64,000 bases of DNA from Acetobacter suratthaniensis (GTDB lineage Bacteria > Pseudomonadota > Alphaproteobacteria > Acetobacterales > Acetobacteraceae): assembly GCF_017377745.1 (NCBI RefSeq), contig NZ_JAFVMG010000011.1, positions 27,082-91,081 of the forward strand, written 5' to 3'. Shown here in pieces: positions 29,266-37,979 of the stretch (position 1 is the stretch's first letter; the number at the start of each line of letters is the position of its first letter). Position numbers and translations under genes: made by a program. Below the pieces are notes generated by a model. That model was not told where the DNA came from and ran no database searches. It worked only from the letters and a program-made list of their open reading frames with translations.

Positions 29266-29940
29266 CGAGTTTCTGGCTCCCTATTTTTCAGACAGAATTT
29301 TAGAGACAATAATTACCTGGCCGTGACGCCCATACTTTATGGGCTTGTAGTCATGTTTTGCTGAAAAACCAACCCAAAAATGTGGCCGGTTTCGATTCTT
29401 TCCGACAGGGACAGCAGAAAGGACGGTATCATTTTTCAGTATTCATCCCGCCCCATAACGGAAAGGGTATCAAAACCGCTATTTACCGGCGGTTATCCAG
29501 CTTTTCAGGGGAGAGAGCCGCAAGAGCTTTCTGCGTAAAAAATAAATTAATTACTCTTTCTGTTCTCCTTATTATTACAAAAAAATACACCTCCATTGTC
29601 TATTTTTTACTCGTAATAACCCCGGCACCCTGCCTGCCTTTTATGGGGATCTGAGGGGCGTCACAATCAGCGGAAAATATGTTGTATTTTATTTATTCCA
29701 CTATTTTTTATTGACTAATAAAATAAAGCACCATAAAGATTCGTCCCATTGGCGCGCAAAGGGCTGCCACAGCCACCGCGCGCGTTAACACCACGCTGTC
29801 AGGAAAGTTCCCATGACCCCCGCACGAATGCGATGCCCGCCGCGATGTCTCGCGGTTTCAACCAAGCAGGCTTTTCCCTTTCCCGGCTGAGTACAGCATC
29901 TGGCCGGGAGCAGATTTTTCCCGAACCAGGATACAGAACT
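29266..29940. other. AT-rich intergenic region with a possible 25-codon leader ORF
   Basis: These 675 bases are much AT-richer than the surroundings, especially 29520-29740. The left end must hold the hup promoter. A 25-codon frame at 29813-29890 (MTPARMRCPPRCLAVSTKQA...) has AGGAAAG upstream and could be a leader peptide for the next small gene. A 98-codon open frame at 29358-29654 has only a TTG start and no protein-like character. Nothing else is recognised. Confidence 0.4.
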
Positions 29941-30147
29941 ATGCGTGACTCCATCATTCTTGAAATCAACGGCGTTTTTGTCGGCACTGTCATTTCTTCG
30001 GGCAACCCGCGCCAGAAACGCTTTTACGCCGTGCATGAAAGCGTTCATGCCCTGCATAACCACGTTTTTTCAGACCGGGACGATATTCGCCGTCTGATTA
30101 TCGGGCATTTTCATCATTCAGCGCCTCGGATCGCCCAGCCTGCCTGA
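29941..30147 (+). CDS. small hypothetical protein (68 residues)
   Basis: Starts MRDSIILEINGVFVGTVISS and contains YAVHESVHALHNHVF, giving an alternation of strand and histidine-rich helix like a small folded domain. AGGA lies nine bases before the ATG. Its last 50 bases overlap the end of the convergent LysR gene, which is unusual and lowers confidence. No family recognised. Histidines could bind a metal, but that is speculation. Confidence 0.5.
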   Translation: MRDSIILEINGVFVGTVISSGNPRQKRFYAVHESVHALHNHVFSDRDDIRRLIIGHFHHSAPRIAQPA

Positions 30148-31141
30148 GCAGTTCGCGAATGAAAATCTGGAGCACGTTGCGGCTCTGATCAATGGCCCTG
30201 AACGCAATATAATGTTGCGAAACAAAGTAATAGACAGAGGGCTGGATAGGCCGCAACCGGCCCTCGCGCCGGTAGGGAGCGGCGGACTGCTCTGGCAGAA
30301 AGCCAATGAACCGGCCTGAGAGAATCATCATCAACTGTGCTTCCATATGCACAATGCTGCCACTGGCGCGTGGATGGTTGATGCGTTGCAGGTCTTCCAG
30401 TTTGCGATACGCCCGCACGGAAAAACGCGCACGGTCTATCATGTCCTTGGTAATCCGCTCATCCGCCATATCAAAAAACGGATGGCCCTGCCCGCAATAA
30501 AGGGCATGTGGCTCCTCGCATAAAGGCAGATAACGCACACCCGGCGCATGGCGGGCAAACGGGCCAATCGCGACATCCCGCGTGCCATCCGCCACCTGCA
30601 GCTCCAGATCCTGCGGGATCCCCAGTTGCAAATCAACATGCACGGTGGATACCTGATCAATCACGCGGGCCAGCACATCCTGCAAGGCTATATCGGGGTT
30701 GTTGATAATCCCGCCGATACTGCCAATCCGTAGCCGCCCTCCCAGTTCCTGCGGTGCCTGACTGACACGGGCCTGAAAAAGTTCAATACTTTCAAAAAGA
30801 TCCTGTATGGCGTCCAGCGTTTCCTGACCAAAGGCCGTCAGGCGAAAACCCTTGCGCCCCCGCAGGCACAATGCCCCGCCCAGACGCTGCTCAAGCGAGG
30901 CCAGATGCGTGCTAAGCGTGGACTGGCTGAGATTGAGAGCAATCTGTGCCGCAGCAAAGCTGCCGGTTTCAGCCAGAACAGCAAAAACCCGCAACAGGCG
31001 CAGGTCTATATTATCAAGCCGCCTGACACGCGTTGCCCCCGAAACAACGCGTTTGGGCGGAAAGCCCGGCTCCGCAGGCGGTGTCTTGTGCCTGCGGGCC
31101 GGGCCGGAAGAAGGGGAACGCTGCTCTGGATTATCGCTCAT
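30098..31141 (-). CDS. LysR-family transcriptional regulator of the guanidino-compound operon
   Basis: 347 residues. A basic, proline-rich extension (about 1-44) precedes the winged helix LRLLRVFAVLAETGSFAAAQIALNLSQSTLSTHLASLEQRLGG (about 48-90), then the substrate-binding domain. It starts inside the last codons of the first ureohydrolase gene (11-base overlap), so it is co-transcribed as the last gene of the operon and probably regulates it. The inducer is presumably the transported substrate or its product. Confidence 0.88.
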   Translation of the reverse strand: MSDNPEQRSPSSGPARRHKTPPAEPGFPPKRVVSGATRVRRLDNIDLRLLRVFAVLAETGSFAAAQIALNLSQSTLSTHLASLEQRLGGALCLRGRKGFRLTAFGQETLDAIQDLFESIELFQARVSQAPQELGGRLRIGSIGGIINNPDIALQDVLARVIDQVSTVHVDLQLGIPQDLELQVADGTRDVAIGPFARHAPGVRYLPLCEEPHALYCGQGHPFFDMADERITKDMIDRARFSVRAYRKLEDLQRINHPRASGSIVHMEAQLMMILSGRFIGFLPEQSAAPYRREGRLRPIQPSVYYFVSQHYIAFRAIDQSRNVLQIFIRELLRQAGRSEALNDENAR

Positions 31142-32096
31142 TGTTCCTGAAATACAGGATCCGGCCGATGAGATTAAGCAGAAGCTGCGCCGCCAGAATG
31201 GGGGTGATGCGCGCGGGGTCGTAATCAGGGGCGACCTCCACCAGATCAATCCCGGCAATACGGCCACGCGCGGCTAGACCCGCCAGAAACTCCAGCATTT
31301 CATAATACAGGAATCCGCCGTGGCTGGGTGTGCCCGTGCCGGGTGCTATGGAGGGGTCGAACCCGTCAATATCAATCGACACGTAATAGTTCACCCCGGC
31401 GGGAATCCGCTCCAGCAGGGCATCAACCCCCATCTCGCGCACCTGCCGCACGCTCAGAATATCCGAGCCAAACCCACGGGCATCGTCATACCCTTCACGC
31501 GCGGTGGATGACACGTTGCGGATACCGATCTGGGTCATGCCCGTAATATGTGACCGTTCCGCAGCCCGGCGCATGGGGTTGCCATGCCCGTGGCGCACAC
31601 CATGCCGCTCATCCACAAAGTCCAGATGGGCATCTATCTGCACAAGGTGCATGGGCGGCTGGTCATCGAACGCGCGAATACAGGGGATATTGATCGAATG
31701 ATCGCCCCCCAGCACCACCGGCAGCGCCCCTGCGGCCAGAATGGCACGCACCCCGGCTTCTATGCCTGCATGGCTGCGTTCGGTATCGGTGTGGACAATA
31801 TCGGCATCGCCTATATCGACAATCCGGCAGCCCTCTCCGCCCAGATAAACCCGGTCATCCTCATGATCGTACGCGCCCGCATGGCCAAAGGCGAACAGGG
31901 TGGACGCCTCGCGGATACTACGTGGCCCGAAACGCGCGCCAGCACGCCACTGGGTGCCGCCATCAAACGGCGCGCCCAGAATGGCAATATCCGCATCAAT
32001 GGCCGACCAGTCTGTCTGGATCGGGTATTTACCAAAGCTGCAAATACCAACAAACGGCAGATTGAGCCTGCCGCTATCGTAACCGTTAGCGCTCAT
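31131..32096 (-). CDS. ureohydrolase (agmatinase/guanidinase family), first of a pair
   Basis: 321 residues. Binuclear-metal ligands of the arginase fold are all present: GGDHS (130-134), DAHLD (155-159) and SIDIDGFDP (240-248). The loop after DAHLD (FVDERHGVRHGHGNPMRRA) differs from agmatinase and would set substrate choice. ATG overlaps the stop of the preceding ureohydrolase (ATGA). It should release urea from a guanidino compound; agmatine, guanidinobutyrate, guanidine or a substituted guanidine are all possible. No urease is in the window. Confidence 0.88.
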   Translation of the reverse strand: MSANGYDSGRLNLPFVGICSFGKYPIQTDWSAIDADIAILGAPFDGGTQWRAGARFGPRSIREASTLFAFGHAGAYDHEDDRVYLGGEGCRIVDIGDADIVHTDTERSHAGIEAGVRAILAAGALPVVLGGDHSINIPCIRAFDDQPPMHLVQIDAHLDFVDERHGVRHGHGNPMRRAAERSHITGMTQIGIRNVSSTAREGYDDARGFGSDILSVRQVREMGVDALLERIPAGVNYYVSIDIDGFDPSIAPGTGTPSHGGFLYYEMLEFLAGLAARGRIAGIDLVEVAPDYDPARITPILAAQLLLNLIGRILYFRNNER

Positions 32097-33052
32097 GCGC
32101 CCCTCCCCGCAGCAATCGCGCACAGCAGTTCAAACATGATGGTTGCCCCGGCCAGAGAGGTAACACCCCCCACATCAAACGGCGGCGAAACCTCCACAAC
32201 ATCAGCCCCGACAATGTCGAGCCCGTTCAGCCCCCGGATCATGCGCTGGGCCTCCCGCGTAAGAAAACCGCCAGCTTCAGGCGTGCCGGTGCCAGGCGCC
32301 ACGGCGGGATCAAGGCAGTCCACATCGAACGAAATGTAAACCGGGCCATCGCCCACACGCGCACGAATGGCCTGCACGATCCCGTCCGGCCCGAGTTCGG
32401 TCGCCTCGTCCATCAGAATCAGGCGAAAACCGGCATTCCGGGCGTAATCGTAATCACGCGGGGTGTACAATGAGCCACGCAGGCCGATCTGGAGCGTGCG
32501 CTCACAGTCAATCAACCCTTCTTCCACCGCCCGACGGAACGGCGTACCGTGGGTGTAACGGTTCTTGCCGAAATACGAATCCGCCGTATCGGTATGGGCG
32601 TCAAAATGGATCAACCCCACCGGACGCTCCGCCGCAAGGCCACGCAGAATGGGCAGGCTGACCAGATGATCGCCTCCCGCCGCCACAGGAATGGCCTTGG
32701 CAGCGGCAATGCGGGCAAAATGGCGGGTAATCAGGTCAAGACTGTCCATCACGTCAAACGGGTTGACCGGGCAATCGCCTATATCCGCGACTTTCAGCAC
32801 CTCATACGGTGCAATACCATTGGCATTGACCTGCCGCATAAGCGATGAGGCATTGCGCAGTTCACGCGGGCCATGCCGCGCACCTGAGCGGTTGGTGGTG
32901 CCGCCATCATACGGAATGCCGGTAAAGACGACATCATACCCTTCCGGGCTGGTTGCCTGCGGCAGGCGCATGAACGTTGGCACCCCGGCAAAACGCGGCA
33001 CCATGCTGGCATCGGCCACCTGCGTTTCTGTGCCGTGCGGTTGGCTGCTCAC
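32093..33052 (-). CDS. ureohydrolase (agmatinase/guanidinobutyrase family), second of a pair
   Basis: 319 residues. Metal motifs are GGDHL (126-130), DAHTD (151-155) and SFDVDCLDP (241-249); the first has leucine where the usual serine stands, but the histidine and aspartate ligands remain. It is clearly paralogous to, but diverged from, the gene at 31131, to which it is coupled by a 4-base overlap. It also overlaps the creatininase gene by four bases. The two could be separate enzymes or subunits of one heteromeric hydrolase. Confidence 0.88.
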   Translation of the reverse strand: MSSQPHGTETQVADASMVPRFAGVPTFMRLPQATSPEGYDVVFTGIPYDGGTTNRSGARHGPRELRNASSLMRQVNANGIAPYEVLKVADIGDCPVNPFDVMDSLDLITRHFARIAAAKAIPVAAGGDHLVSLPILRGLAAERPVGLIHFDAHTDTADSYFGKNRYTHGTPFRRAVEEGLIDCERTLQIGLRGSLYTPRDYDYARNAGFRLILMDEATELGPDGIVQAIRARVGDGPVYISFDVDCLDPAVAPGTGTPEAGGFLTREAQRMIRGLNGLDIVGADVVEVSPPFDVGGVTSLAGATIMFELLCAIAAGRGA

Positions 33053-33822
33053 AGCCCGAACTCCTTGCGCAGGGCGGCGGAAAGCAGGCGCACGTGGTCA
33101 TCCATCAGCCACTGGCCCTTTTCCGCTGTTGACCCCTGCGCACGCGCCAGCACACCCGAGGCAGGCACCACGCCGGGGCGCAGGGGCCAGCGGTCATAAG
33201 TGGGGAAATCCGCCGGGCCATCTGATGGCACTTTTTCCATATCTACCAGATCCTCGCGCAGCAGCAGCATGAGCGAGGTTTCAAGCAGGCTGGCATGTTC
33301 CAGCTCGGTACCGGGGAACCCATCGGGGAACAGCCTGTCCAGCGTAGAACGCTCGACAAAATCCCAGTATTCCAGCCTCATGGCTACAAAATCCGTAATT
33401 CCGTCGCGGCGCAGTTCGCGCATGGCCAGATCAAGCCCTTCGACAGCAGGCCAGGCATTTTCAAAATGCCCGTTCACCAGCACCAGACGCCGCACGCCGT
33501 TATGCGCCAGACGGCAGACCACATCGCGGATAACCAGAGACAGGGTTGCCGCATCCAGCCCGATACAGCCGGGAAACTGCTCCCCCCCACCCGAGCGGGG
33601 CTGTGATTTGTAGCCATAAGGCAGGGTGGGCGCCACAAGTCCGCCCAGTTCAGCGGCCACACAGTTGGCAACGCCAGTCGGCAGAACCTGATCGACATTC
33701 AGCGGCAGGTGCGGGCCATGCTGCTCGGTGGCCCCCAGCGGCAGAAACACAACCGGATTGCGGGCAATCCGCTGCGCAAAATCAGGCCAACTCAGTTCGG
33801 CAAGCTGAACGGTTTCAGACAT
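33049..33822 (-). CDS. creatininase-family amidohydrolase
   Basis: 257 residues from the ATG at 33822, chosen because AAGGA lies about ten bases before it; an ATG at 33831 is too close. Metal-binding motifs of the family are FLPLGATEQHGPHLPLNVDQVL (E, H and D ligands) and LVNGHFENAW (H and E). The fold hydrolyses cyclic amides such as creatinine or formamide-type intermediates. Linkage to two ureohydrolases and an importer suggests it opens a cyclic guanidino compound before, or processes a product after, urea removal. Confidence 0.9.
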   Translation of the reverse strand: MSETVQLAELSWPDFAQRIARNPVVFLPLGATEQHGPHLPLNVDQVLPTGVANCVAAELGGLVAPTLPYGYKSQPRSGGGEQFPGCIGLDAATLSLVIRDVVCRLAHNGVRRLVLVNGHFENAWPAVEGLDLAMRELRRDGITDFVAMRLEYWDFVERSTLDRLFPDGFPGTELEHASLLETSLMLLLREDLVDMEKVPSDGPADFPTYDRWPLRPGVVPASGVLARAQGSTAEKGQWLMDDHVRLLSAALRKEFGL

Positions 33823-33838
33823 GATGACCATATTCCTT

Positions 33839-33895
33839 CTGTTTTTAAAAACAGTGTTTTTTTAAAGATTCTTGAAGCACTGATTTTTTCAGTGC
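33839..33895. promoter_or_regulatory. two inverted repeats inside the operon
   Basis: The gap upstream of the creatininase gene has a perfect 16-base palindrome CTGTTTTTAAAAACAG (33839-33854) and a hairpin GCACTGA-N5-TCAGTGC (33877-33895). The latter overlaps the stop codon of the SDR gene at 33889. No T-run follows on the minus strand, so processing, attenuation or an internal promoter region are all possible. Confidence 0.45.
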
Positions 33896-34602
33896 ATGGC
33901 GGCACCGCCATCAACACTCAGGCACTGGCCTGTAATGAACGCCGCATCCGCCGAGGCCAGAAACAGGGCCGCACGGGCTATTTCATCAGGCTGGCCAATA
34001 CGCCCCATAGGATTGGCCATGTCCTGCGCACGGGTTTTTTCGTCCTGTGCATCAAAGTTGAGCAGCGGTGTATCCACCGGGCCGGGTGCGATCGCATTCA
34101 CCCTGATACGCGGCCCCAGTTCGCGCGCCCATGAGCGTGTAAGCGAGAGCATGGCCCCTTTGGTAGCGCAGTAGAGAGACGCACCAGCCCGGCCCAGATA
34201 CGCCAGTTCCGATGCAATATTGAGAATGCACCCTCCCGCCCCCATGAACGGCAGGGCCGCCTGCGCCACCAGAACCGGCGCACGCAGATTGACCGCCAGC
34301 GTCAGGTCCAGCGCCTGCTGCGTAATCTGCGCCAGTTCCTGTTCCAGCATGATACCAGCACAGTTCACCACCACATCAAGACGCCCATCCAGCCGGGCAG
34401 CCGCCTGCCGCACCGCATCGGCCACAGCGTGTGGGGCTGCCAGATCAACTGGAATAATCTCGCACGCTCCCGTATCGCCTGCGTTGATATCCAGCCCCAC
34501 AACGCGCCCGCCTTCAGCCTGCCATGCCTGCGCAATGGCCCGCCCGATCCCCGAGGCTGCCCCTGTTACCAGCACATGCTGGCCTGTTTTGCACTCACGC
34601 AT
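33889..34602 (-). CDS. short-chain dehydrogenase/reductase (SDR)
   Basis: 237 residues. The nucleotide motif is TGAASGIG, NAG follows in VVNCAGIML, the catalytic serine is in NIASELAYLG and YCATKGA gives YxxxK. The LDIN after the second strand suggests NAD rather than NADP. It is 11 bases downstream of another SDR in the operon. Its substrate is unknown; an alcohol, aldehyde or imine derived from the imported compound is the simplest idea. Confidence 0.88.
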   Translation of the reverse strand: MRECKTGQHVLVTGAASGIGRAIAQAWQAEGGRVVGLDINAGDTGACEIIPVDLAAPHAVADAVRQAAARLDGRLDVVVNCAGIMLEQELAQITQQALDLTLAVNLRAPVLVAQAALPFMGAGGCILNIASELAYLGRAGASLYCATKGAMLSLTRSWARELGPRIRVNAIAPGPVDTPLLNFDAQDEKTRAQDMANPMGRIGQPDEIARAALFLASADAAFITGQCLSVDGGAAMH

Positions 34603-34613
34603 GATCCCCGCCC

Positions 34614-35372
34614 CTAAAACGGATGTTCGCCACGATCGACGCCAAATGTCTGCCCGGTAATGCTGGCGGCAAAGGGCGATGCCAGAAACAGATACGTGCA
34701 GCTGATATCATCAGGGTTCATAAAACCAGAGAGAGCCTGCCCATCCAGTATCGCCTGCATCAACACGTCTTCTTCCTTGCCCGAACGCTCAGCCATGGCC
34801 GTAAGCGAACGGAGGGATGCCTCGGTTCTCACCCAGCCGGGAGCAACGGCATTCACGCGGATTGCGCGTGGCCCAAGCTCCTTTGCCCATGTTTTTGTCA
34901 GGCCGATAAGCGCATGTTTGGAGGCCACATACGCCCCGAATAGTGGCTCGGCCACACGCCCCCAGATAGACGCCGTGTTAATAATACACCCGCCCGCAAC
35001 CATATGCGGCAGGGCCAGCCGGGTTACATGATAAGTACCCACGATGTTGGTGTGGATCACCTGCTCGAACAGGCTGACGGTCTGCTCATCCTGTGCGGTA
35101 ACAGGGGTCAGGCGCTCCAGCCCTGCATTGTTGACCAGCACATCCACCTGCCCATGATCGCGCAGAATATCGGCCATGGCAGCAGCATTGCCAATATCAG
35201 CCACATAACCACGCGCGCCGAGTGTGGCCGCAACGTCTGGCATGGTTTCATCTTGCGCAACAAGGCTGAGCGAAGCCCCGGCCGCGGCAAAAGCCTGTGC
35301 GATACCAAGCCCTATGCCCCGGCTGGCCCCCGTAATCAGAACTGACCGGCCAGAAAAATCGAACGTATTCAT
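34614..35372 (-). CDS. short-chain dehydrogenase/reductase (SDR), second paralogue
   Basis: 252 residues. Motifs: ITGASRGIGLGIAQAFA (cofactor), VNNAGLERL, serine in NTASIWGRV, and YVASKHA (YxxxK). It differs substantially from the SDR at 33889. The start overlaps the stop of the ABC ATPase gene by four bases, so it belongs to the same transcript. Two different SDRs together suggest two oxidation or reduction steps in the pathway. Confidence 0.88.
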   Translation of the reverse strand: MNTFDFSGRSVLITGASRGIGLGIAQAFAAAGASLSLVAQDETMPDVAATLGARGYVADIGNAAAMADILRDHGQVDVLVNNAGLERLTPVTAQDEQTVSLFEQVIHTNIVGTYHVTRLALPHMVAGGCIINTASIWGRVAEPLFGAYVASKHALIGLTKTWAKELGPRAIRVNAVAPGWVRTEASLRSLTAMAERSGKEEDVLMQAILDGQALSGFMNPDDISCTYLFLASPFAASITGQTFGVDRGEHPF

Positions 35373-36196
35373 GCGCCCTCCTGCCCGGCTTCGCGCAGGC
35401 GACCACGCAAAAGATGAAGAATATCTGTACGGATATGAAAAAATCTTTCACTGTCACGCAAGGTTTCATCGCGTACAGGGCCGACCATGGACAGAATATC
35501 CATATCCGCCATAACCCGCGCGGGCCTGCTGCCGAATACGATAATGCGGTCAGCCAGAAACACCGCCTCTTCCACATCATGGGTTACAAAAATCGTTGTC
35601 TTACCCGATTTTTTCTGGATTTTTCGTAGTTCGTACTGAAGGTCTTCACGCAGGTTGGCATCCAGTGCGCCAAACGGCTCATCCATCAGCAGAACATCAG
35701 GATCAGCCGCGAGGGTGCGGGCAATAGCCACACGCTGGCGCATACCGCCCGAAATACGCGAGGGATAACTGCTGGCAAAGTCTGAAAGCCCCACCAGATC
35801 AAGAAAATATCCCGCTCTTTCGCGTTTCTGTGCCTTTGTCATATCACGGCGGAAACGCATGCCAAACTCGACATTTTTTCGCACGCTCAACCACGGAAAG
35901 GACGAATAGGACTGAAACACCATACCCCGGCGGATATCCGGCCCCCCCACAGGCTGACCCTGTAGCAGAATGCGACCTGATGAGGGCGTATCCAGCCCCC
36001 CGATCATGCGCATGAGCGTGGTTTTGCCGCAGCCCGAAGGCCCCAGAAACACCACGAACTGCCCGGCAGGAATATCCAGTGAAAATGGCTCTTGCACCAC
36101 AGGCACGGCGCCGAACGTTTTTGTTACGGACTCGAAGCGCAGATACGCCCCGGCCTGATCGGGCATGCTGCCCGTATTGCCCAGCGTATTACTCAT
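35369..36196 (-). CDS. ABC transporter ATPase, NitT/TauT type
   Basis: 275 residues from the ATG that overlaps the permease stop. Walker A GPSGCGKT, Q-loop MVFQSYSSFPWLSV, signature SGGMRQR, Walker B LLMDEPFGALD and H-loop THDVEEAV are present. The SSFPWLSVRKNVEFG pattern is characteristic of nitrate/taurine/aliphatic-sulfonate importers. It energises the permease at 36193 and serves the binding protein at 36993. Confidence 0.93.
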   Translation of the reverse strand: MSNTLGNTGSMPDQAGAYLRFESVTKTFGAVPVVQEPFSLDIPAGQFVVFLGPSGCGKTTLMRMIGGLDTPSSGRILLQGQPVGGPDIRRGMVFQSYSSFPWLSVRKNVEFGMRFRRDMTKAQKRERAGYFLDLVGLSDFASSYPSRISGGMRQRVAIARTLAADPDVLLMDEPFGALDANLREDLQYELRKIQKKSGKTTIFVTHDVEEAVFLADRIIVFGSRPARVMADMDILSMVGPVRDETLRDSERFFHIRTDILHLLRGRLREAGQEGA

Positions 36197-36996
36197 GACG
36201 ACTGATACCTGAAAAGAAAGCGATGCAGCAGACGCAGGCACTGATCTGTCAGCAGCCCGATCAGGCCGATCATGATCACACCGGCCATCACCTGATCGGT
36301 TTTCATGAAACGACGCGCTGTCCAGATAACAAAGCCCAGCCCGCTATCCGATGCGACAATTTCTGCAATAATCACATAAGTCCAGCACCAGCCAAGGCTT
36401 ATGCGCATGCTGTCCATAAGCTGTGGCAGCATGGCAGGCAGGGCAACCGTACCCAGTGTCTGGCGTGGCTTGGCTCCTAGCGTATAGGCGGTTTCAAAAT
36501 ACTCGCCCGGTACACGCTTCATGTCGGCGGCCACCATCAACACGAGCTGGAAGAACGTGCCGAGCCAGAGCAGGAAAATCTTGGTTTCCTCCCCCACGCC
36601 AAACCAGATGATGGCCAGCGGTACCAAAGCGGGCACAGGCAGATACCGAATGAAGTCGATCAACGGCTCCAAAAACGCACCGATAATCCTGTATCCGCTC
36701 ATGAGAATACCAAGCGGCACCGCAATAATTGCAGACAGCAGAAATGCCGACCACACCCTGCTGATGGAAATCAGCGCATTGGGCATGGCCACACCATCGG
36801 CACACATGGTCCAGAATGCGCGGGCCACAGTCGCGGGAGAGGGCAGGAAGATGGGCGCTACAACATGCAGCGCCACAATCAACCACCATGCGCCCAGAAA
36901 GCTCATGGCCCCCAAAAGCGCCGCAACCCCAACCGCCATGCGCGGTACTGCGGTACGAAAACGCAGCAGCCCCCCGAAAGAGGATGCCCCGCTCAT
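36193..36996 (-). CDS. ABC transporter permease, NitT/TauT type
   Basis: 267 residues with about six hydrophobic segments. The EAA-like cytoplasmic loop AYTLGAKPRQTLGTVALPAMLPQLMDSMR contacts the ATPase. LGWCWTYVIIAEIVASDSGLG is typical of the SsuC/TauC branch. It overlaps the binding-protein stop and the ATPase start by four bases each. Confidence 0.92.
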   Translation of the reverse strand: MSGASSFGGLLRFRTAVPRMAVGVAALLGAMSFLGAWWLIVALHVVAPIFLPSPATVARAFWTMCADGVAMPNALISISRVWSAFLLSAIIAVPLGILMSGYRIIGAFLEPLIDFIRYLPVPALVPLAIIWFGVGEETKIFLLWLGTFFQLVLMVAADMKRVPGEYFETAYTLGAKPRQTLGTVALPAMLPQLMDSMRISLGWCWTYVIIAEIVASDSGLGFVIWTARRFMKTDQVMAGVIMIGLIGLLTDQCLRLLHRFLFRYQSS

Positions 36997-37979
36997 GGTG
37001 CGGACAGGGCGGAGACAGGCCCACTATTGATGTCGCGCGCGGCATCAAGCTTGACCGAAGCTGCGCCATTTTCAATATTCAGGCCCATGAGGGTATCGAA
37101 AATGCCGTTGATGGGGCCGGGTTTCTGCGGCGTACCCATATAGGCCAGAGCCTGTTCAAGGTCTGTGTATTGCAGGCTGCCATCAATGCTTTTCTGAAAG
37201 TCATCGACAGAAAGATTAAAATGCGGTGCAGCCATGCGCGCGAACTCGGCGCTATGGGTTTTGTGGTAATCCACCGCTTTATAGATGCACGACAGAAAGC
37301 GCGTATATTTGCCGGGATTGGCGGCCAGATCATCATTGCGCGCGATCATGACATCCACAATGTAATCAGGATAATCAGAGGATGATACGAGCTTTCTCGG
37401 ATTGCGTGCCGAATCCACACTCATGATCTGCTGCAAGAAGGGCTGATAGGTTACAACGGCGGCAAGGCTCGTATCGGCAAAAACCGCAACGCTGTCAGAT
37501 GTCAGGATTTCCTTGATCTTCATATCCGACAGCGACATGCCGTGCTTGTGTAGTTCAAGCTGTAAAAGCATGAGGCCGGGCACATTGCTTTCCGATGCAA
37601 TGGTCTTGCCCTTGAGTTCGGTTACATCATGAATGGAGCCATCGGCCACAACGCCATCGCCCCCCATGCTGCGATCAATCGGCCCGATGATAACGCCGGG
37701 GGTATCATTATCCCGTGGGCGGCCCTGATACTCGCTGATGGTGCGCATTTCCATCTCGATACTGCCATGCGCCATGGCGGCCATGACATCGGCGCGTTCA
37801 TCCGCGAATTTCAGATTCACATCCAGCTTGGCATCATGGAAACAGCCCAGATCCTGCGCCACGAAAACAGGCGCAAACCCCGACCACACCGGCGCCATGA
37901 TACGGATCGTATCCTGCGCATAAGCGCCAGTAGAACAGGTCAGCCCCAGAGCAACGGCCAGCACTTTGACAGATTTCAT
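36993..37979 (-). CDS. ABC transporter substrate-binding protein, NMT1/SsuA-like
   Basis: 328 residues. A Sec signal (MKSVKVLAVALGLTCSTGAYA) is followed by the periplasmic fold APVWSGFAPVFVAQDLGCFHDAKLDVNLKF, typical of the NMT1/THI5-like family. ADGSIHDVTELKGKTIA is the usual hinge region. It is the first gene of the operon and its abundance would set uptake specificity. The bound ligand cannot be read from sequence; context favours a small guanidino compound. Confidence 0.9.
   Translation of the reverse strand: MKSVKVLAVALGLTCSTGAYAQDTIRIMAPVWSGFAPVFVAQDLGCFHDAKLDVNLKFADERADVMAAMAHGSIEMEMRTISEYQGRPRDNDTPGVIIGPIDRSMGGDGVVADGSIHDVTELKGKTIASESNVPGLMLLQLELHKHGMSLSDMKIKEILTSDSVAVFADTSLAAVVTYQPFLQQIMSVDSARNPRKLVSSSDYPDYIVDVMIARNDDLAANPGKYTRFLSCIYKAVDYHKTHSAEFARMAAPHFNLSVDDFQKSIDGSLQYTDLEQALAYMGTPQKPGPINGIFDTLMGLNIENGAASVKLDAARDINSGPVSALSAP

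Follow-up and report, generated by a model that had tools for sequence, protein, structure and literature searches.

A nine-gene operon of Acetobacter suratthaniensis combining a creatininase-fold hydrolase with paired short-chain dehydrogenases and ureohydrolases: a possible route for guanidino compounds

Introduction

Guanidine riboswitches and recently described ureohydrolases document that guanidino compounds are real nutrients. Here an operon of Acetobacter suratthaniensis is described which locates to a stretch of 64,000 nucleotides (the window; G000:C3:27082-91081 in the host assembly) and consists of nine intact open reading frames, all on the minus strand from position 37979 down to 30098. 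These encode the binding protein (BP), permease (PERM) and ATPase (ATP) of an ATP-binding cassette (ABC) importer, two short-chain dehydrogenases (SDR1 and SDR2), a creatininase-fold metal hydrolase (CRN), two ureohydrolases (URE1 and URE2) and a LysR-family regulator. The closest described system to feature CRN's family is the creatininase-creatinase pathway, whose creatininase shares with CRN the metal ligands and the match to profile TIGR04448 but possesses Trp174-Asp175 where CRN possesses Thr-Glu; here, SDR1, SDR2 and ureohydrolases take the place of the nearby creatinase. Among ureohydrolases, GpuA and GbuA of P. aeruginosa share the metal ligands and R72 with URE1, which groups with both, and neither is known to work together with SDRs and a creatininase-fold enzyme. 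GdmH and its importer likewise combine a NitT/TauT-type importer with a ureohydrolase; in the operon described here the specificity-determining Trp and the riboswitch are absent, while the SDRs and CRN are extra. Guanidine riboswitch control of GdmH is frequent, not obligatory. Metformin hydrolase is likewise encoded by two adjacent ureohydrolase genes, for which it is reported that only one subunit kind keeps its metal ligands (PMC11399263). As the metal ligands are complete in both URE1 and URE2, a heteromer of this type with a dead subunit was set aside. Two further systems touch the operon through its relatives: the guanidine carboxylase pathway (UAAP1/UAAP2, carboxylase and AtzF), which lies near SDR2-CRN in one genome (G187) and is not part of the window's operon, and the PuuE allantoinase family, a relative of which follows SDR1-SDR2 in loci L151, L155 and L162, those of L151 and L155 scoring far below the PuuE cut-off.

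Considered together, the nine genes look like known enzyme families in a seemingly new order. Neither their combination nor the proposed intermediates were found in open-licence PubMed Central papers, judged by title and the start of the abstract. It is tentatively suggested, at less than even confidence, that the operon imports a small guanidino alcohol or aldehyde, oxidises it to a creatinine-like lactam, opens the ring to a guanidino acid and splits off urea.

The creatininase-fold hydrolase

CRN (33049..33831, minus strand; PF02633, 191.7 bits) is 48.6% identical to the creatininase from P. putida and retains all metal ligands (E34, H36, D45, H120 and E122), with Thr174-Glu175 replacing Trp174-Asp175 of the Pseudomonas enzyme. 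The nearest 120 of its 1685 homologues (E 1e-40), which include an Acetobacter sicerae protein of 83% identity, all lack Trp174 and all possess the metal ligands; at positions 174-175 they carry TE (111), TD (7), VE (1) or IE (1). The deposited chain 3a6e aligns with Phe at position 174, hence this residue had been singled out before. Phylogenetic analysis of 38 CRN genes and the P. putida enzyme placed the window's clade apart from the Pseudomonas creatininase with a support of 0.989, whereby the 38 genes comprise that of the window, the genome-search matches (minus one at a contig edge, G342:C6), those of loci L006 and L007, and those of plasmids L154 and L156.

The two kinds of CRN genes differ in their surroundings. 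Within 7 kb, SDR1 or SDR2 with at least 40% identity accompanies 21 of the 24 genes without Trp174, a ureohydrolase 15 of them and creatinase none, while for the Trp174 genes such an SDR was found in none of 14 cases and creatinase in ten, nine of these at 60% identity or more. The window's genus contributes seven of the 24 genes, and another genus (g68) contributes eight, along with five of the 14 Trp174 genes. Three of the 23 plasmid records with a CRN match were opened (L154, L153 and L156); L153 holds a truncated piece with no SDR nearby and was excluded from the comparison, and L156 had been chosen via its SDR match, which biases the counts towards the SDR side. When L154 and L156 are left out, the counts are 19 of 22 for SDRs and 0 of 22 for creatinase. 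Both kinds of CRN occur together in four genomes (G068, G270, G294 and G354), and it is these four, out of the 18 genomes with a non-Trp174 CRN that were searched, in which creatinase was found at 1e-60; none of the seven operon-bearing genomes of the window's genus, the window's own included, yielded a creatinase at this threshold. The CRN clade is distinct from the creatininases which reside beside creatinase.

A few CRN loci depart from these arrangements. At L134:4466-14270, CRN and the importer share the locus with a D-hydantoinase (528.7 bits, cut-off 393), an amidohydrolase and a protein resembling arylmalonate decarboxylase, and no ureohydrolase match was obtained. Rieske oxygenases lie beside CRN or the operon at L140:7091-8431 and L131:633-1934, with glycine betaine monooxygenase as top NCBIfam match, below cut-off; relatives (1e-60) were found in five of the 18 CRN genomes, the window's genome not being among them.

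The paired dehydrogenases

SDR1 (34614..35372, minus strand; PF13561, 168.8 bits) keeps the TGxxxGIG, NNAG and S-Y-K motifs, as do all 13 aligned relatives (those of 23 matches with at least 48% identity). The top NCBIfam match of SDR2 (33889..34602, minus strand) is glucose 1-dehydrogenase, with 195.9 bits and thus below the cut-off of 215. Its S-Y-K residues and the Asp ending strand beta-2 are kept in all 16 aligned relatives (of 29 matches, again those with at least 48% identity); Asp at this position usually goes along with the use of nicotinamide adenine dinucleotide (NAD).

At a threshold of E 1e-55, SDR1 homologues were found on 13 plasmid records, two of which (L154 and L156) hold CRN in the same cluster. 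In the remaining 11, seven of them from Ensifer adhaerens, URE2 and a PuuE-like "polysaccharide deacetylase" flank the SDR1 homologue from opposite sides, as judged by coordinates; the order URE2-SDR1-SDR2-PuuE-like was read directly for L151 and L162 and for L155, which lies outside the 13. Against the PuuE profile (cut-off 424.6), the L151 protein reaches 83.5 bits and the L155 protein 68.6 bits, so that both are relatives rather than allantoinases. SDR1-SDR2 is a conserved partner of a cyclic-amide-type hydrolase, be it CRN or PuuE-like, and not accessory. That two unrelated hydrolase folds go along with the same SDR pair suggests a cyclic amide as the compound which the SDRs form or at least lead up to. 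SDRs are not known to have a place in the described guanidine or creatinine routes, so that the original prediction, which had stated the same, is supported in this regard.

Further PuuE-like hydrolases, about 48-54% identical to that of L151, were observed in L159, L160, L164 and L165. All four loci also encode a urea-carboxylase-associated protein, together with an amidase, a cytosine permease or both; these clusters perhaps represent another cyclic ureide pathway.

The two ureohydrolases

URE1 (32093..33052, minus strand, GTG start; PF00491, 312.5 bits) belongs to the guanidinopropionase/guanidinobutyrase group rather than to the agmatinases or GdmH, with 61% identity to GpuA (3nip) and 48% to GbuA (3nio). 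In a tree of 126 ureohydrolase sequences (midpoint root), it falls into a 93-member clade together with both (support 0.869), outside of which the E. coli and Burkholderia agmatinases reside, while the nodes linking URE1 more closely to GpuA are weak (0.454 and 0.376). The metal ligands H129, D152, H154, D156 and D243 are present, and R72, T157 and Y161 (GbuA numbering) match GpuA. For GbuA, R72 has been proposed as contact for the substrate carboxylate (PMC9772407).

URE2 (31131..32096, minus strand, start ATG 32096; PF00491, 268 bits) belongs to a separate, uncharacterised clade of 17 members, all URE2 (support 0.998), which possess Ala or Ser at position 72 (Ala72 in the window's protein), Phe157 and Arg161 in GbuA numbering. 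Relatives of URE2 were identified on 66 plasmid records, those listed being 66-79% identical and mostly of rhizobial and roseobacterial origin; the one Rhizobium leguminosarum record examined holds the URE2 relative behind an amino-acid-type ABC importer and without SDRs. On a Variovorax plasmid (L163:7980-13161), a URE2 relative neighbours genes for an argininosuccinate lyase and an amino-acid ABC importer, and such a lyase gene was also seen beside SDR1-SDR2-CRN in L142.

Guanidine and urea genes elsewhere in the genomes

A homologue of URE1 (1e-60) is missing from three of the 18 CRN genomes, namely G187, G270 and G424, and for these as well as for the window's genome the carboxylase loci were fetched. 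In G187, these elements lie together within about 16 kb. A Guanidine-I riboswitch (89.7 bits, cut-off 63) is followed by UAAP1 and UAAP2, presumably of the CgdA/B type, a carboxylase and an AtzF-like gene; the opposite strand encodes an importer of the NitT type, a monooxygenase of the NtaA/DmoA type and a desaturase-like protein, followed by LysR, a 256-residue protein, SDR2 and CRN. The guanidine-carboxylase-type set lies about 15 kb from SDR2-CRN. The riboswitch leads an importer and UAAP-type genes with a carboxylase in G270 (87.7 bits) and UAAP-type genes with a carboxylase in G424 (91.6 bits), CRN-SDR2 being located on other contigs in both. Visual inspection was the basis for naming the AtzF-like genes and, in L167 and L168, the UAAP and desaturase-like genes; scans with hidden Markov models covered UAAP1/UAAP2 of L166 and L170 and the desaturase of L130.

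NtaA-type enzymes take off N-carboxymethyl groups as glyoxylate. A gene of this type was found in four of the 18 CRN genomes (G187, G424, G411 and G474), and in Salipiger (L156) the same protein (76% identity) is encoded directly ahead of CRN and two SDRs, in a stretch for which no ureohydrolase is annotated. The module of L154 is adjoined by an HpaI-type aldolase and a pyridoxal phosphate (PLP) enzyme.

The window's genome possesses UAAP1/UAAP2, a carboxylase and an AtzF-like gene away from the operon (L170), with no riboswitch seen there. The statement of the original prediction that no urease gene is present in the window holds for urease alpha, as the single urease alpha match of the whole genome (187.6 bits) is on another contig (G000:C56); a full urea carboxylase is encoded on C4 (1810 bits). 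About 9 kb separate the urease alpha gene from a further URE1-like gene of 47% identity (G000:C56:80882-91535).

Desaturase-like membrane proteins were repeatedly observed near SDR2-CRN or guanidine-carboxylase genes (L117:6678-7685, L130:13544-14617, L167:14040-15050 and L168:2635-3642), the L130 copy, the one scanned, being a weak match to the guanitoxin arginine hydroxylase GntB (19.8 bits, cut-off 380).

Proposed reaction sequence

The suggested sequence would be the simplest that gives every conserved gene a job. Initially, BP, PERM and ATP, for which the families and the BP fold are seen, would import a guanidino compound of presumed identity. Next, SDR1 may convert an alcohol to the aldehyde, which would close on its own guanidine nitrogen to yield a carbinolamine. 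SDR2 would then catalyse the oxidation of this ring to a lactam, much like the formation of lactones from lactols by aldose 1-dehydrogenases; aldose dehydrogenase and lactonase together follow the same logic as the proposed chain of SDR and CRN. Opening of the lactam to a guanidino acid is assigned to CRN, whose family and metal ligands are seen and whose substrate is putative, and the same holds for URE1, and perhaps URE2 for a second guanidino acid, which would yield urea and an amino acid. Finally, urea may be used via the host urease or urea carboxylase, for both of which genes are seen.

A two-carbon skeleton is favoured, in which guanidinoethanol or guanidinoacetaldehyde would be converted to glycocyamidine (demethyl-creatinine), guanidinoacetate, and finally glycine and urea. 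This preference stems from three considerations: CRN is similar to an enzyme that acts on a five-membered ring, an NtaA-type enzyme could give guanidine and glyoxylate from guanidinoacetate, and the aldolase and PLP enzyme of L154 could yield guanidinoacetaldehyde from 4-hydroxy-2-ketoarginine. In a wider sense, and put forward a shade more guardedly than the operon reading itself, an undescribed logic may be shared by several alphaproteobacterial families, whereby paired SDRs would convert guanidino alcohols or aldehydes to creatinine-like lactams, a creatininase- or PuuE-fold enzyme would open the ring, and the acid would pass either to a ureohydrolase, releasing urea, or to an oxygenase and a riboswitch-controlled guanidine carboxylase, with guanidine as intermediate. 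If true, this would be an extra route beside direct ureohydrolysis and guanidine carboxylation, it would explain why some "creatininase" and "agmatinase" genes travel with dehydrogenases, and its enzymes would be directly testable with defined substrates.

Several observations weigh against this interpretation. The substrate is deduced from gene content, and none of the genes fixes its identity; SDRs are a promiscuous family, the order in which the two act is guessed, and URE2 is left without a clear role in the scheme. CRN scores 342.9 bits against the creatininase equivalog TIGR04448 (NCBIfam) and thereby exceeds its cut-off of 235. The main CRN clade does not include the genes of L156 and L142, which are joined at a weak support of 0.152, three non-Trp174 loci (L006, L147 and L149) hold no SDR at 40% identity, nine of the 24 have no ureohydrolase within 7 kb, and near the truncated CRN piece of L153, on an Ancylobacter plasmid, neither of the two was found. 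A Guanidine-I riboswitch was detected in three of eight loci scanned, with none in L117, L130, L131, L156 and L170, and no guanidine riboswitch of any kind was found between positions 29900 and 38400 of the window (Rfam scan, E up to 1). As G411 and G474 hold both URE1 and an NtaA-type gene, the two are not strict alternatives, and G270 holds neither. For the two-carbon version in particular, human AGMAT, a member of the GbuA group, is reported not to hydrolyse guanidinoacetate (PMC9772407), which weakens it. Both ureohydrolases furthermore pass the agmatinase equivalog TIGR01230 (cut-off 174.3) with 185.7 (URE1) and 185.9 (URE2) bits. Despite this, the tight clustering with characterised agmatinases, named by the original prediction among the outcomes that would speak against it, was not found for URE1 in the tree: its identity to 4dz4 and 7lol is 40-41%, and URE2 is 37% identical to 1wog, which falls outside the URE2 clade. 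Such names can mislead: human AGMAT carries the agmatinase annotation, yet its reported substrates are guanidino acids, agmatine not being among them (PMC9772407).

Alternative explanations

The alternative which survives best retains the sequence of oxidation, lactam formation and hydrolysis but assumes a longer skeleton, i.e., 3-guanidinopropanal being converted via dihydroisocytosine to 3-guanidinopropionate, or 4-guanidinobutanal via N-amidinopyrrolidinone to 4-guanidinobutyrate. URE1, being closest to GpuA and grouped with GpuA and GbuA, is consistent with this, as is human AGMAT, which is reported to take the longer guanidino acids and not guanidinoacetate (PMC9772407), and Thr174 may leave more room in the CRN active site than Trp174. 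CRN most resembles the opener of a five-membered ring, however, and both the NtaA-type partners and the L154 aldolase would suit a two-carbon unit better, so that a longer skeleton is considered rather unlikely, though the foremost competitor of the two-carbon version.

Creatinine scavenging would require that CRN converts creatinine to creatine and that a ureohydrolase replaces creatinase, yielding sarcosine and urea, with the SDRs as bystanders. The TIGR04448 match, the identity to the P. putida enzyme and the complete metal ligands are in line with this idea, and since no creatinase was found at 1e-60 in the window's genome, such a replacement would be needed. On the other hand, Trp174 is gone across the clade, four genomes hold a Trp174 creatininase near creatinase besides this CRN, and the SDRs are linked to CRN at 21 of 24 loci and are also found with the unrelated PuuE-like hydrolase. 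Moreover, human AGMAT, of the GbuA group, is reported to be inactive on creatine (PMC9772407). The contrast in neighbours, the co-occurrence of both kinds in four genomes and the lack of creatinase in all seven operon-bearing genomes of the genus therefore render it unlikely that CRN is there for creatinine. Creatinine degradation was set aside on the grounds of the lost Trp174 and the differing neighbours.

A role in guanidino-cyclitol or guanidino-sugar breakdown would assume that the SDRs form a ring diketone, of which CRN cuts a C-C bond in the way of IolN, ureohydrolysis following thereafter. IolN, a creatininase-family hydrolase which acts after dehydrogenases, provides a precedent, and an HpaI-type aldolase is present in L154. 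With 59.3 bits against the IolN profile NF041098 (cut-off 245), as opposed to the score obtained for creatininase, CRN does not fit this route, which was set aside on that account; kinase, isomerase and dehydratase are absent from the nine-gene set, and the PuuE-like protein found in place of CRN has cyclic-amide hydrolases as relatives, all of which makes it improbable.

The GdmH-like use of free guanidine, with the remaining genes on separate tasks, has in its favour a ureohydrolase beside a NitT/TauT-like importer and the Thr which URE1 keeps at position 105, but was dismissed as very improbable, since, of the key residues Thr105 and Trp313 described for GdmH (PMC11410670; N. inopinata numbering), Trp313 is replaced by Thr in both enzymes and Thr105 by Gln in URE2, the identity to two GdmH structures amounts to 30-34%, and the guanidine riboswitch was not found. 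The original prediction of a guanidino uptake and hydrolysis operon that releases urea is supported in its general reading, the link to GdmH being the part that is not supported.

Operon layout, importer and conservation

The architecture of the nine same-strand genes, with the families named in the original prediction, was confirmed by the open reading frames and profile matches, and most junctions are 4-base overlaps. BP (36993..37979, minus strand; PF09084, 58 bits) is a NitT/TauT-type, NMT1/THI5-like substrate-binding protein, PERM (36193..36996, minus strand; PF00528, 87.7 bits) an ABC permease and ATP (35369..36196, minus strand; PF00005, 108.4 bits) an ABC ATPase, for which ATG 36196 was taken as start, the longest open reading frame beginning at GTG 36241. 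Overlaps of 4 bases join BP to PERM (36993-36996), PERM to ATP (assuming the ATP start at ATG 36196), ATP to SDR1 (35369-35372), CRN to URE1 (33049-33052) and URE1 to URE2 (assuming the URE2 start at ATG 32096), five junctions altogether; SDR1 and SDR2 are spaced by 11 bases, SDR2 and CRN by 57 bases. The regulator (30098..31141, minus strand; PF00126 and PF03466) probably starts at ATG 31141 and would then overlap URE2 by 11 bases. Relatives of it, with 50-68% identity, reside near CRN in L006, L123-L128, L130, L131, L139 and L154.

The AlphaFold model of BP (predicted local distance difference test score, 87) found its closest PDB fold in TauA (6ssy; template modelling score about 0.7, 16% identity; Foldseek, E 9.5e-19), so that the predicted structure is that of a NitT/TauT binding protein. 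A sequence search against PDB yielded no matches for BP, and no plasmid matches were obtained at 1e-40. Profile and fold matches scatter over binders of taurine, sulfonates, thiamine precursors and nitrate or bicarbonate, and thus point to no particular ligand. Residues D102, S104, G106, G107, D108 and G109 are unchanged in all 13 aligned relatives.

Searches at E 1e-60 or better gave CRN matches for 19 of 395 genomes at the level of the order and for 11 of 385 at that of the class; within the family, searched at 1e-30, five of 200 genomes matched, and each count includes the window's own genome. The search for the same gene order, which had been proposed as a check, returned the identical nine-gene order in all six other genomes of the genus with a CRN match (L123-L128), and this repetition renders the cluster more than a product of chance. 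At least 20 genomes of the genus are listed without a CRN match, hence the operon is patchy within it. Near-complete sets were identified in L130, where LysR is more distant from the operon, in L131, where LysR is divergent and a 256-residue protein is encoded ahead of BP, and in L139, which belongs to a different family and is missing URE2. L118 and L132 combine URE1, an SDR, an amino-acid permease, SDR1 and CRN, the ABC importer being missing.

In Paramesorhizobium deserti (L006:8741-9968), a BP fragment (residues 16-174) is separated by 2 bases from the CRN fragment that comes next (residues 35-258), and the locus yielded no PERM, ATP, SDR1 or SDR2; this junction is apparently the relic of an internal deletion or a misassembly. 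The 256-residue protein of L131 (L131:3845-4615) is without a Pfam or NCBIfam match, and its family neighbours SDR2-CRN, the operon or the guanidine-carboxylase cluster in several genomes; homologues (1e-10) are present in 11 of the 18 CRN genomes, including that of the window (G000:C45:122016).

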